DNA of 64,000 bases from Thermotoga neapolitana DSM 4359 (GTDB lineage Bacteria > Thermotogota > Thermotogae > Thermotogales > Thermotogaceae). Below are positions 7,560 through 18,775 of this stretch, in pieces. A program made the translations under genes and the position numbers. A model generated the notes under the pieces. It searched no databases. It saw only the letters and a program-made list of their open reading frames with translations, and had not been told where the DNA came from. The DNA lies in assembly GCF_000018945.1 (NCBI RefSeq), contig NC_011978.1, positions 1,768,729 through 1,832,728 of the forward strand, written 5' to 3'. Position 1 is the stretch's first letter; every line of letters begins with the position of its first letter.

Positions 7560-8756
7560 TCAGGAGAAGATGAACTCTTTTAACTTTTCGTAAAGACGGC
7601 TCCAGTCTCTTTCACGCTCAACGTACTCTCGGTTTTTCAGCCCAAGATGTGAATAATCTTTTTTGAGAAGATCCTCCAGAACTTCTTCGAGGTTTCTTTC
7701 GTTGAAGAAAATCGCACCGTTTGTTTCTTTGAACAAAATTCCCTCAACGTCGATGCACAGAACGGGTTTTCCAGACGCCATGTAGTCAAGCACCTTGTAG
7801 GAACTCACCGCGGGATGGGCCATCTTGGTGGGAGAAAGGGTGAAGAGAAGAAAATCCACTTTCTGAAAGAGAGATGGAACACACTTTTTGGGAACAGGAT
7901 CGAAGAAAAAGACGTTCCTGAGATTTCTGAAGGTCTTCTTCAACTCCTCAAGATAGTCTGGCTGGGAAGGCCCCACAAAGATGAAGACAAATTTCTCTCT
8001 TGTATCTTCTTTCACACCTGAGAGCATCTCAAGGAACTCTTTCACTCCGTTGTGCGGAACGATCGATCCTGCATAGAGAACCTTCATTTTGTTCTGCGGC
8101 ACTCTGGAGAGAATTTCTTCTACCCTGGGACAGTGTTCATAATTTTCGAATCGGCTCAGATCCACGCCGTTTGGCACAAAGACGAACCTTTCAGGATGAA
8201 CCCTCAGTCTCTCAAAGTGCCTTGAAAGATCCGGAACAAGAGAGATAATCCCATCGGCCTTCGGATAGTATTTTTTGCACATGAAGTCAAAGAGTTTTGA
8301 GACAGGGTGAGAGTACGAGATTGAGCCGAGTTCCACAAGGTCGTCTGGCCAGACGTCTCTGATCTCAAGAAAGAGTTTTCCTTTCTTTTTTTTCACGTAG
8401 TACCAGCCAAGACTCCAGGAGAAGGGATGTGGTGAAGAGGCGATGATCACGTCGTATTCTCTTTGAACGACCAATTTTTTCCCGTTTTTGTAGTAATCAT
8501 AAGAGGAGAGAAGCCTGGAGAGTGAGTTTCCAGAGTACTCTCTTGTTTTCACAACTATGAAGTTCACTCCCTCTTTTGAAAAACGCCATCCGAACGTTTC
8601 ACTCCACCTTTTTCCTGAAAGGTGCGAAAAGTCCCCAACGTAGACGTCCACGCTGTGGCCGTCCTTCACAAACCTTTTTGCGAGTTCAAAATGCCTCGTC
8701 TCCGAACTTCCCATCTCCGGAATGCTGGCATAGTGGTTGAGTATGGCGATGTTCAA
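7560..8756 (-). CDS. GT4 family glycosyltransferase
   Basis: A 398-aa GT-B enzyme resembling WbuB-type transferases of surface polysaccharide clusters. The N-terminal acceptor domain opens ILNHYASIPEMGSSETRHF. The C-terminal nucleotide-sugar domain has FVPNGVDLSRF, LYAGSIVPHNGVKEFLEML and SSYKVLDYMASGKPVL. It is divergent from the ATP-grasp/HAD/flagellin island and may belong to the same surface or flagellar glycosylation function. ATG 8756 follows a GGAGGAAT ribosome site. Sugar and acceptor unknown. Confidence 0.85.
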   Translation of the reverse strand: MNIAILNHYASIPEMGSSETRHFELAKRFVKDGHSVDVYVGDFSHLSGKRWSETFGWRFSKEGVNFIVVKTREYSGNSLSRLLSSYDYYKNGKKLVVQREYDVIIASSPHPFSWSLGWYYVKKKKGKLFLEIRDVWPDDLVELGSISYSHPVSKLFDFMCKKYYPKADGIISLVPDLSRHFERLRVHPERFVFVPNGVDLSRFENYEHCPRVEEILSRVPQNKMKVLYAGSIVPHNGVKEFLEMLSGVKEDTREKFVFIFVGPSQPDYLEELKKTFRNLRNVFFFDPVPKKCVPSLFQKVDFLLFTLSPTKMAHPAVSSYKVLDYMASGKPVLCIDVEGILFKETNGAIFFNERNLEEVLEDLLKKDYSHLGLKNREYVERERDWSRLYEKLKEFIFS

Positions 8757-8772: not shown

Positions 8773-8801
8773 TTTACAGTCCTCCCTCGTTATTATAGAA
8801 T
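8773..8801 (+). promoter_or_regulatory. Promoter of the ATP-grasp/HAD pair
   Basis: TTTACA (8773-8778) and TAGAAT (8796-8801) are 17 bases apart, and the AAGGAGG ribosome site starts only about six bases after the expected transcript start. It lies in the 69-base gap between two divergent genes. Confidence 0.5.
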
Positions 8802-8825: not shown

Positions 8826-9794
8826 ATGGTGAAAATTCTAATAGGTTCATGCGGTGGTCTTACAGGTCTTTATTTAGCGAAAGTTCTGCGAAAAATGGAT
8901 ATTGGAGAGAGGTTCGAGATATATGGTTTCGATATAACAACGAAGGTTCCTACAAAATTCTTTCTGGATAAATTGTTTGTAATAAGCAGATCCAGTGAAG
9001 AGAAGGAGTTTATCGATCAACTCATTGAAATCCTGAACAAAGAAAGGATAGATATCTATATCCCGGTGCACTCTGAAGAATGCAGAGTTGTTTCAAAATA
9101 CCAGACTGAAATACTCAAACGAAGTCGTTCGAAATTCATGATATCACCTTATGAAACATTCAAAATGCTGGATAATAAAGCAAATGCTTATAAAATTCTG
9201 AAGGGGATAGGACTTAAAACGCCAAAAATATACACCTCTTACCACGACGTAGATGAATTTCCCGTGGTTGTCAAACCAGCAGTGGGAAGCGGCAGCAGAG
9301 GATTTTTCATTTGTAGAAACAGGGAGGAATTAGAACTTGCAACAACGATTTATAGAGACGCTCTAATAATGGAATATATCGATGGAAAAGAATACACAGT
9401 CGATGCTTTCTTCAACAAAAAAGGTGAGCTGGTCACATACAATCAGAGAATCAGAATCAAAACGTTGGGAGGCGCTGCTGTTATCTCAGAAAACGACTTT
9501 TCGATTGATGTTCGTGATCAAATTGAAAAAATTGCGGCGAAGTGTAAAATATTTGGGCCTGCAAATTTTCAGTTTTTTCTGACTCCAGAAAATGAAGTAA
9601 TATTTACAGATATAAATCTGAGATTCGCTTCCGGAGGGCTTCCTTTGAGCGTAGAATCAGGTTCCAACATTGTAAAATTGTTAATACTGGAACTTCTGGG
9701 AAAACCTTACAATCCATCTGAGTTTCAGAGTGATAGGAAAAAGCGAATTATGTACAGATATTTTGAGGAGATGTTCGAGGTGACCGAGGGGTGA
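8826..9794 (+). CDS. ATP-grasp carboxylate ligase (CarB-like)
   Basis: A 322-aa ATP-grasp enzyme: an N-terminal Rossmann-like half opening ILIGSCGGLTGLYLAKVL, then the ATP-grasp fold. Seen are the nucleotide-binding lysine region VVKPAVGSGSRGFF, the adenine-contacting MEYIDGKEYTVDAF and the metal-binding VIFTDINLRFASGG, where Asp replaces the more usual Glu. Such enzymes join a carboxylate to an amine or similar acceptor through an acyl phosphate. ATG 8826 follows AAGGAGG; the GTG at 8820 overlaps that site. It overlaps the HAD gene by four bases, so the two are coupled. The base composition is clearly AT-richer than the rest of the window (many ATA, TTA and AAA codons). Placement just ahead of flagellin suggests a role in modifying flagellin or its glycan; inferred. 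Confidence 0.82.
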   Translation: MVKILIGSCGGLTGLYLAKVLRKMDIGERFEIYGFDITTKVPTKFFLDKLFVISRSSEEKEFIDQLIEILNKERIDIYIPVHSEECRVVSKYQTEILKRSRSKFMISPYETFKMLDNKANAYKILKGIGLKTPKIYTSYHDVDEFPVVVKPAVGSGSRGFFICRNREELELATTIYRDALIMEYIDGKEYTVDAFFNKKGELVTYNQRIRIKTLGGAAVISENDFSIDVRDQIEKIAAKCKIFGPANFQFFLTPENEVIFTDINLRFASGGLPLSVESGSNIVKLLILELLGKPYNPSEFQSDRKKRIMYRYFEEMFEVTEG

Positions 9795-10429
9795 TAATTT
9801 TTGACCTCGATGGAACGTTGTTAGATGTTTGGGAAAGATATTTCTTTGTGTTCAATTCATGGTGGAAAATTGAAAACCTCGATCTTGAAACGTTCAAAAC
9901 ACTGAAGAGAAGGTTCGAACAGGATTCGATGATAGTCAACCTTTTCCGCAATGTCTCCGAACAGGAATACGAGTCATACAGAGAATACAAAAGAGAAAAA
10001 CTGGAAGATCCATCTGTTTTAGAACTTGATAGAGACATTGTTGATTGGAGTTTATTAGACAGGTTGAAGGAAAAATACATCATACTGACATTGAGGCGAA
10101 ATCACAAAGCCCTCCTTGAAGATCTGAAAAAGAGAAACGAAAGTATAGTAGACAATGTTGTGGCTTTGAAACCAAACGGAGATCTGTTGATTAAGTACAA
10201 CTGGGTAAAAAACAATGTACCATCAGACGAAGAGATTACAGTTGTTGGAGATTCAGAAACAGATCTTCTCATAGGGAAACAGAAACAAGTACATGTTTTT
10301 CTTGTAAAAACCGGCCTGAGGGATCCAGATATGCTGATAAAAAAATTCTCTGAGCAATTATTCGGGAAAGTGTTCATCGTGAATTCTGTAAACGATTTCT
10401 TGTACCTGTACCTTCAAAATCCATATTGA
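9791..10429 (+). CDS. HAD superfamily phosphatase
   Basis: A 212-aa HAD hydrolase with motif I FDLDGTLLD at the extreme N-terminus, a motif II region IILTLRR, and motif IV VVGDSETDLLIGKQ. The helical cap lies between residues about 15 and 90. GTG 9791 overlaps the ATP-grasp stop (GTGA). Its AT-rich composition matches its partner. ATP-grasp plus HAD pairs recur in surface-polysaccharide loci, where the phosphatase may act on a phosphorylated sugar or cofactor intermediate; the substrate here is unknown. The gene ends 131 bases before flagellin. Confidence 0.82.
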   Translation: MIIFDLDGTLLDVWERYFFVFNSWWKIENLDLETFKTLKRRFEQDSMIVNLFRNVSEQEYESYREYKREKLEDPSVLELDRDIVDWSLLDRLKEKYIILTLRRNHKALLEDLKKRNESIVDNVVALKPNGDLLIKYNWVKNNVPSDEEITVVGDSETDLLIGKQKQVHVFLVKTGLRDPDMLIKKFSEQLFGKVFIVNSVNDFLYLYLQNPY

Positions 10430-10507: not shown

Positions 10508-10521
10508 ACCCGGCGCCGGGT
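10508..10521 (+). promoter_or_regulatory. Perfect palindrome at the 5' end of the flagellin leader
   Basis: ACCCGGCGCCGGGT is a perfect 14-base palindrome beginning about seven bases from the predicted transcript start. As RNA it gives a GC-rich stem that could protect the abundant flagellin message; as DNA it could be an operator. Confidence 0.6.
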
Positions 10522-10560: not shown

Positions 10561-11724
10561 ATGAGGATCAATCACAACATCAGTGCGTTGAACGCCTGGA
10601 GGAACATCAGTCAGACACAGTACAGCATGAGCAAAACCCTTGAAAGACTCTCCTCTGGTTTGAGGATCAACAGAGCCGGTGACGATGCAGCGGGTCTTGC
10701 CATCAGCGAAAAGATGAGAGGCCAGATCAAGGGTCTGAACATGGCAATCAAAAACGCCCAGGATGCCATCTCCCTGATCCAGACAGCAGAAGGAGCGCTC
10801 ACAGAAGTACACTCAATCCTTCAGAGAATGAGAGAACTCGCAGTCCAGGCAGCATCCGACACCAACACCGACGTTGATAGAGAACAGATCCAGAAAGAAA
10901 TCGATCAGCTCAGAGAAGAGATCGACAGGATAGCAAGAACAACCGAGTTCAACACAAAGAAACTCCTCGATGGAAAACTGGAAAGTTTCAGAAGCCAGGT
11001 CGACGCAAAGGTCGTGACGGGTGGAAACATAAACGTTCAGCTGGGAACTGTGTCCTCGGCTGCTGTTGAAGGAACATACGTTATCGAAGTTGGACAATTC
11101 TCTGGAACGGTCACATCCGAGCTTGATGTCAAGATCACCCTGTTCAGCGTTGGAGGTTCTACCTCTAAGATCGCTACCATAACAGCAGGTACAGCTGCAC
11201 TTGGAAATATCACCTTTACATGGGATACAAACGTTCTCAGCATAAGTGATTTTGGAGGAGCCCTGCCATCCAACGAAGTGGTCGACAGTGCCGTTGTGAG
11301 GGTGGAAGCTGTTTACACAGCGGCATCTCAGCTCATCTTCCAGATCGGAGCCAACGAAGGTCACAACATGGTTGCCGGTATCGATGACATGAGTGCAGCA
11401 GCACTTGGATTGACAACAGCTTCTCTCAAGGTCACCGATCAGGACAGTGCAGAAAGGACAATCATGGTCATAGACGCAGCGATTCACAGGGTGAGCACGG
11501 CAAGGGCAGCACTCGGTGCTATCCAGAACAGGCTCGAACACACCATCTCCAACCTCGGTGTTGCCGCAGAAAACCTCACAGCCGCAGAATCCAGAATCAG
11601 AGATGCAGACATGGCAAAAGAGATGATGGAGTTCACCAAGCAGCAGATCCTGCTCCAGTCCAGTATGGCGATGCTTGCCCAGGCCAACACACTCCCGCAG
11701 AACGTCCTCCAGTTGATGAGATAA
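10561..11724 (+). CDS. fliC: Flagellin
   Basis: A 387-aa flagellin. The conserved N-terminal D0/D1 region begins MRINHNISALNAWRNISQTQ and includes LSSGLRINRAGDDAAGLAIS. The conserved C-terminal D1/D0 region includes GAIQNRLEHTISNL and ends QANTLPQNVLQLMR. The central part (about residues 145-280) is the variable, surface-exposed Thr/Ser/Ala/Val-rich domain where glycans would sit. It has a private FliA-type promoter, a GGAGGTGAG ribosome site and a strong terminator, so it is transcribed as a single gene. It is flanked by glycosyltransferases and the ATP-grasp/HAD pair, which points to post-translational modification of the filament. Confidence 0.96.
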   Translation: MRINHNISALNAWRNISQTQYSMSKTLERLSSGLRINRAGDDAAGLAISEKMRGQIKGLNMAIKNAQDAISLIQTAEGALTEVHSILQRMRELAVQAASDTNTDVDREQIQKEIDQLREEIDRIARTTEFNTKKLLDGKLESFRSQVDAKVVTGGNINVQLGTVSSAAVEGTYVIEVGQFSGTVTSELDVKITLFSVGGSTSKIATITAGTAALGNITFTWDTNVLSISDFGGALPSNEVVDSAVVRVEAVYTAASQLIFQIGANEGHNMVAGIDDMSAAALGLTTASLKVTDQDSAERTIMVIDAAIHRVSTARAALGAIQNRLEHTISNLGVAAENLTAAESRIRDADMAKEMMEFTKQQILLQSSMAMLAQANTLPQNVLQLMR

Positions 11725-11823: not shown

Positions 11824-14397
11824 GTGAGAAGATGCCTTCTTTCCGTTGCGATGATAGTGAAAGATGAAGAGCACAACATAAGAAGAGCTCTCGAGAGTGT
11901 CAAAGGTGTTGCAGACGAGATCGTGGTGGTCGACACTGGCTCCACAGACAGAACGCCCAAGATCGTAAAAGAGTACACCGACAGACTCTACTTCCACGAG
12001 TGGAAAAACGACTTTTCTGAAGCAAGGAACTTCTCTTTGAAATTTCCCACCTGTGAGTGGGTTCTCATACTGGACGCAGACGAAGAGGTCTCTGAAGAGT
12101 TCAGAAAGAACATAAGGGACTTTCTGAAAAATCTTCCAGACGATGTGAACACCATCTATCTTCCAACGGTGAGTTATCTGGACTGGGATTTCAAAAAAAC
12201 AGAAGTGGCCTCCACTCCGAGGATATTCAGAAACGGGACGGTGTACTACAAAAACATCGTTCACAACCAGGCTGTCTACAAGCCGAAAGTGGTTCATGCC
12301 CCGTTCAAGGTGTACCACTACGGCTACATCTGGACCAGGAAACTGAAGAAGAAAAAATACGAGCGAACTGCAACGCTCATAAGAAAACATCTCGAAACGG
12401 TGAAAGATCCTGTGGAAAAGATATACTATTTGATACAGCTTTATAAGACAGAAAAGGTAGGTGGTAAAAAGCACGAAGAAAACAAAATCGCCTGGCAGAT
12501 TTTACAGGAAATAAAAAAAATTGGAAAAGTACCGGCAATAGGTTTGGAATTTCTCTATATTTTTGGAATGGAACTGATAACAAGAGGATTTCTCGAAAAA
12601 GGTGAAGAATTGATAGATACCGCACTGAAGGCCTTCCCGGAGAATCCCGATCCTTACTTCGCAAAACTTGCCATCTACGAGAGGAAAAAAGACTGGGAGA
12701 ACCTTTACCGATGGGGAAGCAGATTCTTTGAAGTTCTGAACAGGGCAATGTCACAGGTAGAAAAGTACGAGTTCACCATCATGAGTATAAGAGAGATCGG
12801 AACAGCACATCTTCTCACGTGTCATGCGTGTCTGAAACTGAAGAAATGGGAAGAAGCCGCTCTTCATCTTTCAAAAGCGATAGAAAGCAATGTTGATAGA
12901 TCAAAACTTGCAGTCACACTCCGTCACGTCCTGGAAATAGAAGACAGAGAAGACTTTCAAAAAGCACTTGGCCTCGTGGAAAAAATAGCAGAACACTCCG
13001 AAAATCTCTTCTTCGACAACGTGGTAGAAAAGATAGCAGAATTTGAGATCGATGTTTCCGAAAATCTTCTGAAGAAACTTCCCGTCTCAAAGAAGATCTC
13101 CAGATTCATCGTGAAAAGACTGATTGAGAAAAAAGATTTCCTCTTCGAATACCTCACAGACGAAGACACAAACTCCTTTGTGGAGAGAACAGGCATCCCC
13201 GGTCTTCTTTTCATTTTCGATCTTCTGAAACGGAGAGAAACAGAAGGAAAACTCATCAGAATACTCTCAAAGATCGAAGGCGATGAAAAACTAAGCGGCA
13301 TCATCCAGGCACTCATAGGAGATCTCTATCTGAAACTTGGAAACTTCTCCGAAGCCATTTCAAGATACAGAAAAGCGCTGGAATTGACACCAGAGATGGC
13401 AAACTTCATAAAGCCTGTGATCGAAGACCTGAAAACACGCCTTGATCCGGACACAGAAGGTGTCTACGAAGAACTCTACAGGTACTTCTCAGGCTACAGA
13501 GAGTTCCCGTTTGATCTTCTTGGCTTTGTAAAAGAAGACGCAGAAAAACTGTACCTCATCTCCGACCACCCGGTGGCACTCTATGCTTCTGCTGTGGCTA
13601 CCAGAGACAGGGAAAAATCGAAGAAGTTGCTGATGAAAATAACAGACACCACAAAACTTCCGTTCTACTACTACCGGCTTGCAAAGATCCACGAAGAAGA
13701 AGACCCAAAAAGGGCCTTCGAACTTCACATGAAGGCAGTGGAGGAAAACGAAAACCTGGGAGACATTGCACTGGGAAGGTATAAATACGACGCTCTCTAT
13801 CCGAACCAAGTCCTTCCTTTCATGAGAAAAGAAGACGAAACCATCTGGGCTGGAAACATCACGGAAAAGTTCTCAGGTCTTGGCGTGATCCATCCCGTCA
13901 GATCCTGGAAGAAAAAAGAAAACTTCTTTTACTCGTCCCCATTTCCATCAGATGAGGCTTTGAAGATTTACAGAGAAAGAGAAAAGGAGATCTACAAAGA
14001 TCCTCCATTCAAGATCAAAAAAGAGTACGTCGTTGAAGCACTATCAGAGACCGACCTGACGGATTTGAAAGTCAGAGGAGATCTTCCCGGACTGGAATCT
14101 GTTCTGGAAGAACTCGGAATAGAGTTGAAAGAGAACTCGAAAAACCTCCTTGTTGTTTCTGGTGTAGAAGAGACTCTAGACCTTGAAAAACTCGTTGAAG
14201 ATGCTGAAAGAGTCCTTCTTTTCTTCTTCGTTCCGGATTTGAGTGATAGAAACGATCTTGTATGGTACTATCCTCCTTTCAGGGTGCTCAGGACAACGTC
14301 TCAGATGAAAAACATCCTGGAGAAGGCAGGATTTTCCACTTTGAAAGTGAAAGCATTTGAGAAGAATTTGAGGTTCATAGAGTCCGCGAGGAGGTAA
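11824..14397 (+). CDS. Large GT2 glycosyltransferase with TPR-like repeats
   Basis: An 857-aa protein. Residues 1 to about 230 form a GT2 (GT-A) domain: LSVAMIVKDEEHNIRRALES, VVVDTGSTDRT and the metal-binding LILDADEEV. The long remainder is helical and contains TPR-like units, clearest at DLYLKLGNFSEAISRYRKAL (around residues 503-522). The final 150 residues show no family I recognise. GTG 11824 follows GAGGTGAGA. It is the first gene after the flagellin terminator and is followed three bases later by the next transferase gene. TPR-bearing GT2 proteins near flagellin usually act in filament glycosylation; that role is inferred. Confidence 0.85.
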   Translation: MRRCLLSVAMIVKDEEHNIRRALESVKGVADEIVVVDTGSTDRTPKIVKEYTDRLYFHEWKNDFSEARNFSLKFPTCEWVLILDADEEVSEEFRKNIRDFLKNLPDDVNTIYLPTVSYLDWDFKKTEVASTPRIFRNGTVYYKNIVHNQAVYKPKVVHAPFKVYHYGYIWTRKLKKKKYERTATLIRKHLETVKDPVEKIYYLIQLYKTEKVGGKKHEENKIAWQILQEIKKIGKVPAIGLEFLYIFGMELITRGFLEKGEELIDTALKAFPENPDPYFAKLAIYERKKDWENLYRWGSRFFEVLNRAMSQVEKYEFTIMSIREIGTAHLLTCHACLKLKKWEEAALHLSKAIESNVDRSKLAVTLRHVLEIEDREDFQKALGLVEKIAEHSENLFFDNVVEKIAEFEIDVSENLLKKLPVSKKISRFIVKRLIEKKDFLFEYLTDEDTNSFVERTGIPGLLFIFDLLKRRETEGKLIRILSKIEGDEKLSGIIQALIGDLYLKLGNFSEAISRYRKALELTPEMANFIKPVIEDLKTRLDPDTEGVYEELYRYFSGYREFPFDLLGFVKEDAEKLYLISDHPVALYASAVATRDREKSKKLLMKITDTTKLPFYYYRLAKIHEEEDPKRAFELHMKAVEENENLGDIALGRYKYDALYPNQVLPFMRKEDETIWAGNITEKFSGLGVIHPVRSWKKKENFFYSSPFPSDEALKIYREREKEIYKDPPFKIKKEYVVEALSETDLTDLKVRGDLPGLESVLEELGIELKENSKNLLVVSGVEETLDLEKLVEDAERVLLFFFVPDLSDRNDLVWYYPPFRVLRTTSQMKNILEKAGFSTLKVKAFEKNLRFIESARR

Positions 14398-14400
14398 AGT

Positions 14401-16482
14401 ATGGAAATTTTTGAAAAAATTCAAAAGGCGATAGAACAAAAAGATTTTTCAAAGGCAAAAGAAATGGCAGAAAAAATCGACGATGAAACAGAAAGATACA
14501 ACACACTGGGGATGGTGCACTACTACGAAGGCAGAAAAGAAGAGGCTCAGGCCTTCTTTGAAAAAGCCTTGAAGATAAACCCTGTTCACGATGACGTACT
14601 GTTCAACTATTCGAAGGTTCTACTTGAAAAAGGAGAGTACTTCGAAGCCTGGAGGTATCTGACGAGAATCAATGAGAAAACGTGGGAAGTGTACGACATG
14701 CTCGGTGACACTCAACTGCAATTGAACAACCTCGCAATGGCCCTTCATTACTACAGAAAAGCATCAGAACTTTCTGACATTCCAGAGATGAAAGAAAAGT
14801 ACGAATCACTCAAAAAGCAATTTAAAAAGGATACAAAAGTTGCTTTTCTCTGCCTTCCTGGTCTTGATCATTTCATCAAAGACATAGCAAATATTCTTTC
14901 CGAAATGTACGAAGTGAAACTCGTTGTAACAGCAGATGGAAAGCAGATCGTCGACGCTTACAATTGGGCAGATATCGTCTGGATCGAGTGGGCAAACGAA
15001 CTGGCAGTGGAGATAACAAACAAACTGCCAAAAGGAAACAAAAAAATTCTCTGCAGGCTCCACAGTTATGAAGCCCTTGCAAACTATCCAGAAAAGATAA
15101 ACTGGAACAACGTGGACACACTTATACTGGTTGCCGACCACATGAAAGATGTGCTGAAAAACTACCATCAGAGTGTCTACGAAAAAATAAAAGACAAAAT
15201 CAAAGTGGTTCCAAACGGGGTAGATCTGAACAGGTTCAGATTCAAAGTTCGATCTCCTGGTTTCAACATAGCCGTGGTGGCACACATAAATCACAAGAAA
15301 GCTCCTGAGATGTGGCTTCAGGTGATCGGGTTTTTGAAGAACATCGATGAAAGATACATTCTCCACGTGGCAGGGGATTTTCAGGAGCTAAGATATGCAA
15401 ATTACTTCAAGTATTTCATCAAAGAAGCTGACCTGGAGAAAAACGTCAAGCTGTATGGCTTTGTGCGTAACATAGAAGAATTCCTTGAAGACATGAACTA
15501 CGTACTTTCCACAAGTGTTCATGAAGGTCATCCGTACAACATAATGGAAGCAATGGCAAGAGGTATAAAACCCTTGATACACAATTATCATGGAGCAAAA
15601 AAGCAGTGGCCTGAGGATCTCATCTTTAATTTCATCGATGAAATTCCTGATCTTATAAAGAGAAAGTACGAGAGTGAAAGATACAGACGATACATGGAAG
15701 ACAACTACTCTCTGGAGTCGCAGATCAAAATTATCACAGGTGCGATAGGATCACCGCCTACAAAGATAAATGTGGAAAAAAAGAGCGTATGGGATAATTT
15801 ATGGAGAAAATACACTGAATATGACATATTATCTCTTGTTAACAACCCTGAAGGAAAAGCTTTCAGATCGGAGTTTGTGAATTTGTTAAATCACTTTTTT
15901 GTACTGAAGGGTTCAAGGATACTGGAAGCTGGGTGTGGTTCTGGCACCATTTCCATAGATCTTTCAAAAAGAGGCGCCTATTACACAGGGATAGACATCA
16001 GCCAGGATAGCGTAGAACTCTCAAAGAAAGTAGCCAGTTTTTTCGAACTACGAAATGTGAGCTTCAAGAAAATGGATGGTTTCAAAACGATATTTTCCGA
16101 TAAAGAATTCGATATTGTTTTCAACATCGGTGTAGTGGTACATTTCCAGGATGAGGACATCGTCAAAATGCTCAAAGAGATGGCTCGCGTGGGGAAATTC
16201 ATTGTGGTAGGTGTCCCGTACAGTGGATCGCAGATTTATAAACTCTCAAAAGAGATATCACAGGAGACCGGAACTTGGGAATATGGTTTTGAAAGAGATT
16301 TTTACAGTTTAAAGGATCTGTTCGAAAAAGCTGGAGTAAAATTGCTTCACGAGGAAATCATAGGTTCATTTTCTGAGGCCTTTTATTTGAAAAGGATAAA
16401 CCCCTCACTGATAAAAAACAACTGGCCCAAAACCTTGAAAGAATGCTTCAGGGTGCGAAAAACATTGGAAGCTGGCTTGTAG
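14401..16482 (+). CDS. TPR-GT4-methyltransferase fusion protein
   Basis: A 693-aa three-part protein. Residues 1 to about 140 are TPR helices (for example EEAQAFFEKALKINPVHDDV). Residues about 145-455 are a GT4 (GT-B) glycosyltransferase with KVVPNGVDLNRFRF, NIAVVAHINHKKAPEMW and STSVHEGHPYNIMEAMARG. Residues about 465-690 are a class I SAM methyltransferase with motif I RILEAGCGSGTISIDL followed by YTGIDIS. One chain could add a sugar and then methylate it. ATG 14401 follows GGAGGTAAAGT. The methyltransferase part is AT-richer than the GT part, hinting at a later addition. The next gene starts 40 bases inside its end. Confidence 0.85.
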   Translation: MEIFEKIQKAIEQKDFSKAKEMAEKIDDETERYNTLGMVHYYEGRKEEAQAFFEKALKINPVHDDVLFNYSKVLLEKGEYFEAWRYLTRINEKTWEVYDMLGDTQLQLNNLAMALHYYRKASELSDIPEMKEKYESLKKQFKKDTKVAFLCLPGLDHFIKDIANILSEMYEVKLVVTADGKQIVDAYNWADIVWIEWANELAVEITNKLPKGNKKILCRLHSYEALANYPEKINWNNVDTLILVADHMKDVLKNYHQSVYEKIKDKIKVVPNGVDLNRFRFKVRSPGFNIAVVAHINHKKAPEMWLQVIGFLKNIDERYILHVAGDFQELRYANYFKYFIKEADLEKNVKLYGFVRNIEEFLEDMNYVLSTSVHEGHPYNIMEAMARGIKPLIHNYHGAKKQWPEDLIFNFIDEIPDLIKRKYESERYRRYMEDNYSLESQIKIITGAIGSPPTKINVEKKSVWDNLWRKYTEYDILSLVNNPEGKAFRSEFVNLLNHFFVLKGSRILEAGCGSGTISIDLSKRGAYYTGIDISQDSVELSKKVASFFELRNVSFKKMDGFKTIFSDKEFDIVFNIGVVVHFQDEDIVKMLKEMARVGKFIVVGVPYSGSQIYKLSKEISQETGTWEYGFERDFYSLKDLFEKAGVKLLHEEIIGSFSEAFYLKRINPSLIKNNWPKTLKECFRVRKTLEAGL

Positions 16483-17495
16483 CGATAGGTACTAACGACA
16501 GGATATGCGAAGAGACCTTCAGAAGAGCAAAAGAAAAAAGTAGTAGAGTGAAATTTTCCCCTCAACTCGAAGTTGTAAAAAATCGGTACCCATCTGTATC
16601 CATAGTAATACCTTTCTTGAACGCCAGAAAGTACATCAGCAGAATTGTTGAAAATCTTTGCTTGTTGTCTTATCCCAACTTCGAAGTAGTGTTTGTGAAT
16701 GATGGCTCCACAGATGGAAGTGATAAGGAAATCGGGAAGCTCTTGTCTAAGGACAAGAGGTTTCCATACAAAATCCTGAACCTTGAAAAGAACGAAGGAC
16801 CGTTCCTTGCAAGATACAAAGGAACCTTGGCTGCTGATGGCGAGTACGTTGTTTTCCACGATATAGACGACAGGTTGCAGTTGAATGGCATCGACAGACT
16901 TGTTCTTGATACTGTAAACTTCGGCAACAATGTGCTCCTAGCTGTTTCCTTGGCTCTGATGAAAAACGCAAAATGCACCGGTGATGTGTGGTTCATTGAC
17001 ACAGAAAAAAAACCCATGGATTACTTTCATAAAACAGTGAAACATTTGAGTGGAAGGATTAACCCGGTAGATTCCTTGTTACCCAAAAAAGTTTTGTTAG
17101 AAAGCTACTCTTTGCTCGTTTCTTTGCTGGGAGATTTTGGTAAGAACTTCTCAGTGGGTGAAGACATGCTGCTGGTTTACCACATGTTACTGAATGGCGC
17201 TGTGGAGGAGATAGTACCTGTCTACTACATCTTCAGAGGTTATGAAACAGGAAACAATTTCTCTGTTTCGAAAAATCTCGAAAAGCGTGTTCAATCTTTA
17301 CCTTTAGCTATCTCTTACATTGTTACATCCTTGACAAGAAGACAACTTGCGAACCTCGATCAGTTAGAAGAGATGGAGAACAATATAAGAAGCAGGGCAA
17401 AAGTACTTTACGGAGAGACTTTGGGAGAAAGATTCTGGAAAAATTTCTTGAAGTACAAAAATTATTTTGAAAAAACATTTGGAAAAACGTTATAA
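16443..17495 (+). CDS. GT2 family glycosyltransferase
   Basis: A GT2 enzyme of up to 350 aa with SVSIVIPFLNARKYISRIVE, FVNDGSTDGSDKEI and the metal-binding HDIDDRL. The GT-A core occupies residues about 45-230; the C-terminal 110 residues are helical. The start is uncertain: ATG 16443 overlaps the previous gene by 40 bases and has no strong ribosome site, while an in-frame GTG at 16548 would leave a cleaner N-terminus. It ends 15 bases before the promoter of the flavodiiron gene, so it closes the flagellin glycosylation block. Donor and acceptor unknown. Confidence 0.82.
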   Translation: MLQGAKNIGSWLVAIGTNDRICEETFRRAKEKSSRVKFSPQLEVVKNRYPSVSIVIPFLNARKYISRIVENLCLLSYPNFEVVFVNDGSTDGSDKEIGKLLSKDKRFPYKILNLEKNEGPFLARYKGTLAADGEYVVFHDIDDRLQLNGIDRLVLDTVNFGNNVLLAVSLALMKNAKCTGDVWFIDTEKKPMDYFHKTVKHLSGRINPVDSLLPKKVLLESYSLLVSLLGDFGKNFSVGEDMLLVYHMLLNGAVEEIVPVYYIFRGYETGNNFSVSKNLEKRVQSLPLAISYIVTSLTRRQLANLDQLEEMENNIRSRAKVLYGETLGERFWKNFLKYKNYFEKTFGKTL

Positions 17496-17509
17496 CACAA
17501 ATATTTCTA

Positions 17510-17538
17510 TTGACGCAATTCCAGATGATTGCTATAAT
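17510..17538 (+). promoter_or_regulatory. Promoter of the flavodiiron operon
   Basis: TTGACG (17510-17515) and TATAAT (17533-17538) are separated by 17 bases. This near-consensus promoter would start transcription around 17545, some 33 bases before the ATG, separating this operon from the glycosyltransferases. Confidence 0.8.
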
Positions 17539-17577
17539 GATTTAGGAACCACTAATTTTCTCCTGGAGGTGTCCTGT

Positions 17578-18775
17578 ATGCCGAAAGTCTGGACTGAAAA
17601 GGTCTTCGACGACCCAGAAATTTATATTTTAAGAATAGACGACGATCGGATAAAGTATTTCGAGGCAGTGTGGGAGATATCCGAAGGCATCAGCTACAAC
17701 GCGTACCTTGTGAAACTGGGCAGTGCAAACGTTCTGATAGACGGCTGGAAGAGAAATTACACAGAGGAGTTCATAGAAACCCTCTCCAGTCTCATCGATC
17801 CGAAAAAGATCACCCACATCGTAGTCAACCACACCGAGCCAGATCACAGCGGAACACTGCCTGAAACACTGAAAGTTATAGGACACGATGCGGAGATCCT
17901 CGCATCGAACTTTGGAAAAAGACTCCTTGAAGGTTTCTATGGGATAAAGAACGTGTCGGTGGTATCGGACGGTGAAGAAAAAGAGATAGGCGGAAGGACG
18001 TTCAAATTCGTCATGGCCCCCTGGCTTCACTGGCCCGACACGATGGTGACCTATCTCGATGGGATCCTCTTTGGATGCGATGTGGGAGGGGGGATACTCC
18101 CTTCCTTCCACTCTGGACGACTCGAGCGAAGAAGTGGTGAAAGAATACCTTCCCTACGTCACAAAATACATCGTCACTGTAATAGGACACTACAAAAACT
18201 ACATTCTGGAGGGAGCAGAGAAACTCTCCGCACTCGACATAAAAGCGATACTTCCGGGACACGGGCTGATATGGAAAAAGGATCCGGGAAAACTTCTTGA
18301 GCACTACGTGAACGTTGCGAAGGGTGTTCCAGAGAAAGGAAAAATCACGGTGATCTACGACTCCATGTACGGTTTTGTGGAGAACGTCATGAAGAAGGTG
18401 ATTGACTCTCTCAAAGAAAAAGGACTAAAACCGGTTGTTTACAGGTTCTCCGACGAAGAAAATCCTGCAATGAGTGAGATCCTGAAGGATATTCCTGACA
18501 GCGAGGCGCTGATCTTTGGTATCTCCACCTATGAGGCGGATCTTCATCCACTCATGAGGTATGTCATCTACGAGATCACCGACAAAGCAAATTATGAAAA
18601 ACCCGTTCTTGTCTTTGGTGTGCACGGCTGGGCTCCGTCTGTCGAGAGAAAGTCAGGAGAATTTCTGAAGGAGTCGAAGTACAGAGTGCTTTCTTTCACA
18701 GAGGTGAGGGGTGCTGGCGTGGACGAGAAGAAGGTCGAAGAGGCGATAGATCTTCTCATGAAAGAACTGGAGTGA
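17578..18775 (+). pseudogene. fprA: Flavodiiron protein (oxygen reductase), frameshifted
   Basis: It closely resembles the T. maritima flavodiiron protein (about 398 aa), which reduces oxygen to water. The beta-lactamase-like domain shows the metal ligands NHTEPDHSGTLP and WLHWPDTM. The flavodoxin domain begins VIYDSMYGFVENVM. The reading frame breaks after CDVGGG at a run of six G (18088-18093). One G fewer would continue as GYSLPSTLDDSSEEVV and so on to the proper C-terminus MKELE. Both halves are otherwise fully conserved, so this is a very recent mutation, a slippage-controlled switch or a sequencing error. ATG 17578 follows GGAGGTG. Confidence 0.9.

Follow-up and report, generated by a model that had tools for sequence, protein, structure and literature searches.

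An AT-rich cassette of two genes, encoding an ATP-grasp protein (P0001) and a HAD phosphatase (P0002), has replaced the gene for a QdtC/NeuD-like acyltransferase at one site in the Thermotoga neapolitana genome, with sharp junctions. The site lies between a GT4 glycosyltransferase gene and the flagellin gene (Table 1). The gene swap is genuine and site-specific, and the pair is plausibly a glycan-decoration cassette of a widespread kind. All positions refer to the window, which is the whole 64-kb stretch of DNA analysed and is part of a host genome of one contig (1,884,562 bases).

Table 1. Features at the site of the gene replacement in T. neapolitana (window positions).
Feature	Position	Strand	Remarks
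GT4 glycosyltransferase	7560..8756	-	Divergent from the pair; conserved in the genus
Swapped segment	8769..10448	.	Without counterpart in six other Thermotoga species; replaces ~800 bp with the LbH acyltransferase gene
Promoter-like TTTACA-17-TAGAAT	8773..8801	+	Sigma-70-like, 10/12 consensus match; within the swapped segment
ATP-grasp gene (P0001, 322 aa)	8826..9794	+	Divergent PRK12767-like putative carboxylate-amine ligase
HAD phosphatase gene (P0002, 212 aa)	9791..10429	+	Motifs DxD, K127, GDSETD
Sigma-28-like flagellin promoter element TTAAcatTAAA...CCGATTAA	10465..10495	+	Kept in 7/7 Thermotoga species; sigma-28 assignment by resemblance
Flagellin	10561..11724	+	Domain match
GT2 + TPR protein	11824..14397	+	Domain match
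TPR-GT4-methyltransferase-GT2 protein	14401..17495	+	Split in this genome; intact 1032 aa in G039

The junctions were mapped by blastn and MAFFT against six other Thermotoga species. Homology with G039 stops 12 bp beyond the GT4 start (window ~8768) and restarts at ~10449, and to the right of this point the two genomes are 98.8% identical through the flagellin leader. The gap between the GT4 and flagellin genes measures 913–924 bp in the six other species versus 1805 bp in T. neapolitana. In all six, the gap holds one minus-strand gene, for a left-handed beta-helix (LbH, hexapeptide) acyltransferase, in tight order with the GT4 gene directly 3' of it. Among solved structures, QdtC is the best relative of this LbH protein (E 3.5e-31), and WxcM-like and further sugar N-acetyltransferases come next; its best NCBIfam match is NeuD/PglB/VioB. 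An LbH orthologue is present in 10 of the 14 Thermotogaceae species compared, and none is left in the T. neapolitana genome. The ATP-grasp/HAD pair was not found in 44 other Thermotogales genomes searched.

An ATP-grasp gene is also found beside the LbH gene in another genus (G044). Divergent from the LbH gene there is an insertion of two genes (L233:10427-13003), a 244-aa ORF without a Pfam match and the ATP-grasp gene. This unit is missing from the sister genome G042. The association in G044 is independent of that in T. neapolitana, which favours a functional link, with the qualification that the G044 ATP-grasp is of a different subtype.

The earlier note had described two coupled genes of foreign-looking composition, with their own promoter, lying directly upstream of a co-directional flagellin gene and opposite a divergent GT4 gene. 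This description is borne out. Both ORFs carry their expected Pfam domains, are intact and are translationally coupled: the ATP-grasp ORF starts with an ATG that has AAGGAGG ahead of it, and the HAD ORF starts with the GTG of a GTGA sequence, creating a 4-base overlap. The GC contents of the ATP-grasp and HAD genes (0.379, z = -3.1, and 0.368, z = -3.45, respectively) are the two lowest among the 55 ORFs of the window, as are their GC3 values (0.37 and 0.41 versus a mean of 0.547). The pair ends 131 bp 5' of flagellin. The sigma-70-like site in front of the pair is a candidate promoter on the strength of its position and not of statistics, given that the region contains 7 such sites versus 5.3 ± 1.9 by chance and hence no excess. 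The sigma-28-like element sits immediately right of the right swap junction, an arrangement suggesting that the flagellin promoter was retained and that the cassette supplied its own upstream sequence. The flagellin leader also includes a GC-rich palindrome (ACCCGGCGCCGGGT, window 10508-10521) that is near-invariant in all seven Thermotoga species and might form a leader hairpin.

On the far side of flagellin, the TPR-fused glycosyltransferases resemble FlmG, a modular flagellin glycosyltransferase (PMC7591256), and this resemblance makes a flagellin glycan a plausible target of the pair. A Maf (MptE-like) transferase was not found adjoining flagellin, where the flanking proteins are of the GT4, GT2-TPR and TPR-GT4-methyltransferase types as judged by Pfam. 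Literature searches brought up nothing published on glycosylation of the T. neapolitana flagellin. The split in the TPR-GT4-methyltransferase-GT2 gene corresponds to an A-run one base short relative to G039, and might be a true frameshift, a slippage site or a sequencing error. A second apparent frameshift lies nearby, in a flavodiiron (ODP-type) gene (17467-18775) that is apparently split over two frames.

P0001 is recognized as an ATP-grasp protein by Pfam (5.8e-16), with ATPgrasp_Ter as its best domain match, and it matches PRK12767.1-4 of NCBIfam (3.1e-46) below the curated cut-off. Its score for the PRK12767 family (NF009405, carbamoyl phosphate synthase-like) is 157.8 bits, with the curated equivalog cut-off at 390, and by this measure P0001 is a relative of PRK12767 and is not called a member. 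The ATP-grasp ligand residues K150, E183, E189, N264 and R266 are conserved, with D instead of E262. An AlphaFold model built from 36 sequences (pLDDT 93.7) has 2pn1 as its closest solved fold (TM 0.82-0.86), followed by biotin carboxylases, L-amino acid ligases and PylC. These nearest folds fit a carboxylate-activating ligase, and together with the ligand residues they place P0001 in the ATP-grasp superfamily, among proteins of the carboxylate-amine ligase type. A peptide-pattern search revealed no close homologues in genome or viral contig collections. A phage origin of the pair was rejected, as one weak phage match was obtained and P0001 has no PHROG match.

P0002 is matched by HAD_2 of Pfam (E 6.1e-9) and carries the catalytic residues of a HAD phosphatase (D5, D7, T9, K127, D154 and D158). 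Its best NCBIfam match is PpaX (25 bits), and its AlphaFold model is moderate (73.9) and resembles phosphatase and pyrophosphatase folds only weakly. No plasmid match was found for P0002, and a search of 45 Thermotogales genomes gave no match outside its own genome.

A wider set of 80 loci from many phyla was fetched with a profile of Thermotogota homologues. Of these, 78 extend far enough to show what follows the ATP-grasp gene. In 63 of them the HAD gene lies no more than 400 bp downstream of the ATP-grasp gene or is fused to it, and in 43 it overlaps the ATP-grasp stop. The pair of T. neapolitana, with its GTGA overlap, has the same directly downstream arrangement. Neighbours include a DegT aminotransferase (40 of the 80 loci), an SDR dehydratase (39), an LbH protein (4, a count that lacks a control set and is suggestive only) and, within ~8 kb, flagellin (1), with NeuB, NeuA or NeuC in a few. 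Because such pairs are widespread in sugar loci and rarely near flagellin, ATP-grasp plus HAD is, as judged from gene neighbourhoods, a general surface-sugar unit that is sometimes found at flagellin loci. Two flagellin/nonulosonate loci carry the pair, namely L138 and L116 (Acetoanaerobium), where it resides inside a complete flagellin locus that also encodes Maf, a PseB-like dehydratase and NeuB, among others. The 2.6-Mb record containing L116 is labelled a plasmid, bears flagellar genes as well as the flagellin glycosylation locus, and is likely a mislabelled chromosome.

The PRK12767-type pairs (L104, L106, L116, L120-L199) resemble the T. neapolitana pair in gene order, in their usual overlap and in their sugar-locus context. 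Natural fusions of the two genes occur in a Saccharibacteria MAG (L181:7998-9605) and a Selenomonas MAG (L197:7950-9593). However, P0001 is 28% identical to these proteins, lacks the GRR motif that the main paired subfamily has near its N terminus, and sits on a long branch, with an unreliable tree placement. P0002 belongs to a divergent HAD subfamily, was matched by phmmer to none of the HAD proteins of 92 loci at E<1, and falls outside the TIGR02253-like paired subfamily; the window is also without nonulosonate genes. These differences make any transfer of function from the common pairs weak. No study naming the product of PRK12767-HAD pairs was found in the open literature.

These neighbourhoods and the published precedents narrow what the earlier note had proposed. 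Its idea that a ligase and a phosphatase act together in glycan decoration gains from the nature of the swapped-out gene, which resembles those of NDP-amino-sugar N-acetyltransferases, and from the sugar-locus context of the homologues. In contrast, a role dedicated to flagellin is not sustained by the neighbourhood search, nor is the view that the pair is an undescribed kind of system. Roles of ATP-grasp proteins in flagellin modification have been shown genetically in two species. In C. difficile, genetic evidence shows that flagellin acquires its peptidylamido-Fuc3N cap only with the protein CDR20291_0245 (PMC5207246, PMC5207245). This protein is encoded in a flagellin glycan locus (type B) with GT2 and GT-methyltransferase proteins, types that are also encoded near the T. 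neapolitana pair, but it has FdtB and FemAB-like partners and is not known to have a HAD partner. The Shewanella oneidensis protein SfmE (SO_3265; PMC3765264) affects flagellin modification but differs from P0001 in its length (412 aa), its nonulosonate operon and the lack of a reported HAD partner. Likewise, ATP-grasp plus HAD chemistry on a glycan is not without description. For the C. jejuni HS:2 capsule, enzymatic work showed that Cj1438C amidates glucuronate with either serinol-P or ethanolamine-P, after which the HAD protein Cj1435 removes the phosphate (PMC11800379). An exchange comparable to the one described here is known from Geobacillus flagellin islands, where the acyl-changing gene fmt3 occupies the place of the acetyltransferase gene fdtC (PMC5109656), although fmt3 encodes a formyltransferase rather than an ATP-grasp and HAD pair.

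The sugar pathway genes of the genus bear on the possible acceptor. A DegT aminotransferase of the 3-amino-sugar type (QdtB/WbpE-like) is kept in all seven Thermotoga species, and an amino sugar may therefore still be made. The ketoisomerase FdtA (PF05523) has no match in the seven Thermotoga genomes, and for this reason the dTDP-Fuc3N/Qui3N (dTDP-3-amino-sugar, Fdt/Qdt) route was rejected. The presence of the aminotransferase together with the absence of FdtA suggests that UDP-GlcNAc3N is the likelier type of sugar. A search for NeuB yielded the same 39-bit partial match to PF03102 in all seven species, versus 320 bits for the NeuB of L116, and this match probably represents a related synthase. 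With no convincing NeuB among the matches, a nonulosonate role in T. neapolitana is not favoured.

We tentatively favour an acyl swap by gene replacement, in which the cassette would decorate a glycan of the cell surface by forming an amide where the relatives would acetylate. P0001 would activate a carboxylate as an acyl-phosphate and join it to an amine, so that a sugar or sugar-nucleotide comes to bear an amide where the LbH enzyme of the relatives would add an acetyl group. P0002 would strip phosphate from the building block or the product, and the neighbouring glycosyltransferases would place the altered sugar on the surface glycan, which is plausibly the O-glycan of flagellin. The C. jejuni chemistry counts against this reading in that it runs the opposite way, combining a sugar carboxylate with a phospho-amine. 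The natural swap, a clean one in the small genome of a non-pathogen, offers, when set against six acetyltransferase-bearing relatives, a simple comparison in which an inter-species difference in glycan mass would reveal the addition made by the pair. If the addition is on flagellin, the swap would show that hyperthermophiles can change the acyl group of their flagellin glycans by replacing a gene. A more specific form of the proposal, which we consider doubtful, is that hyperthermophiles exchange the acetyltransferase for a ligase/phosphatase pair acting on an amino sugar of the flagellin glycan, where the substrate of the ligase is a phosphorylated acid, from which the HAD protein then takes the phosphate. 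If true, phosphorylated-acid ligation would be chemistry so far undescribed for PRK12767-HAD pairs across bacteria.

A strong rival, which we judge somewhat unlikely, is that the target of the pair is a general polysaccharide of the cell surface and not flagellin, and that the pair adjoins flagellin incidentally, having taken the place of a gene that already lay there. The LbH gene lies away from flagellin in other Thermotogaceae genera, so the surface glycan that this site serves may be a general one; the divergent GT4 is, by its domain matches, of a general surface-glycan type, and flagellin is near few of the homologous pairs (the single one of the 80, plus L116). However, the pair is co-directional with flagellin, with no plus-strand terminator-like site found between them, the TPR-fused glycosyltransferase genes lie on the far side of flagellin, and the pairs of L116 and L138 are at flagellin loci.

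It is unlikely that the pair follows C. jejuni-like chemistry, whereby the ATP-grasp protein would couple a phosphorylated amino-alcohol, as an amide, to a sugar carboxylate (uronate), leaving the phosphate to be removed by the HAD protein. This scheme would explain why the ligase is so strictly paired with a phosphatase, and Cj1438C with Cj1435 is a direct enzymatic precedent that, like the proposal made here, couples ATP-grasp amide formation on a glycan to a HAD phosphatase step. A phosphatase step also seems to matter in S. meliloti (L117:5267-6996), where the ATP-grasp gene adjoins a gene annotated as histidinol-phosphatase. By its sequence this gene looks PHP-type instead of HAD, and it may encode a phosphatase partner without homology to the HAD proteins. 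Yet Cj1438C is a TupA-like ATP-grasp of a different subfamily, fused to a GT2 and acting on capsule rather than flagellin, and the cassette has no gene for making a phospho-amino-alcohol. In addition, the resemblance of the replaced gene to those of amine acetyltransferases speaks for an amine as the acceptor.

Synthesis of an unrelated small metabolite after a chance insertion, for example a Ter-operon-like or amino-acid-ligase product, is improbable. The divergence of P0001 and its ATPgrasp_Ter match would fit such a role, but the match covers a generic domain stretch, the site formerly held a sugar acyltransferase gene, and the homologues reside mainly in sugar loci. That the cassette is a recently arrived, non-functional or decaying insert is highly improbable, since its AT-richness, its restriction to one species and the frameshifts in neighbouring genes are set against two intact, overlapping ORFs with a ribosome-binding site, catalytic motifs and a confident ATP-grasp fold.
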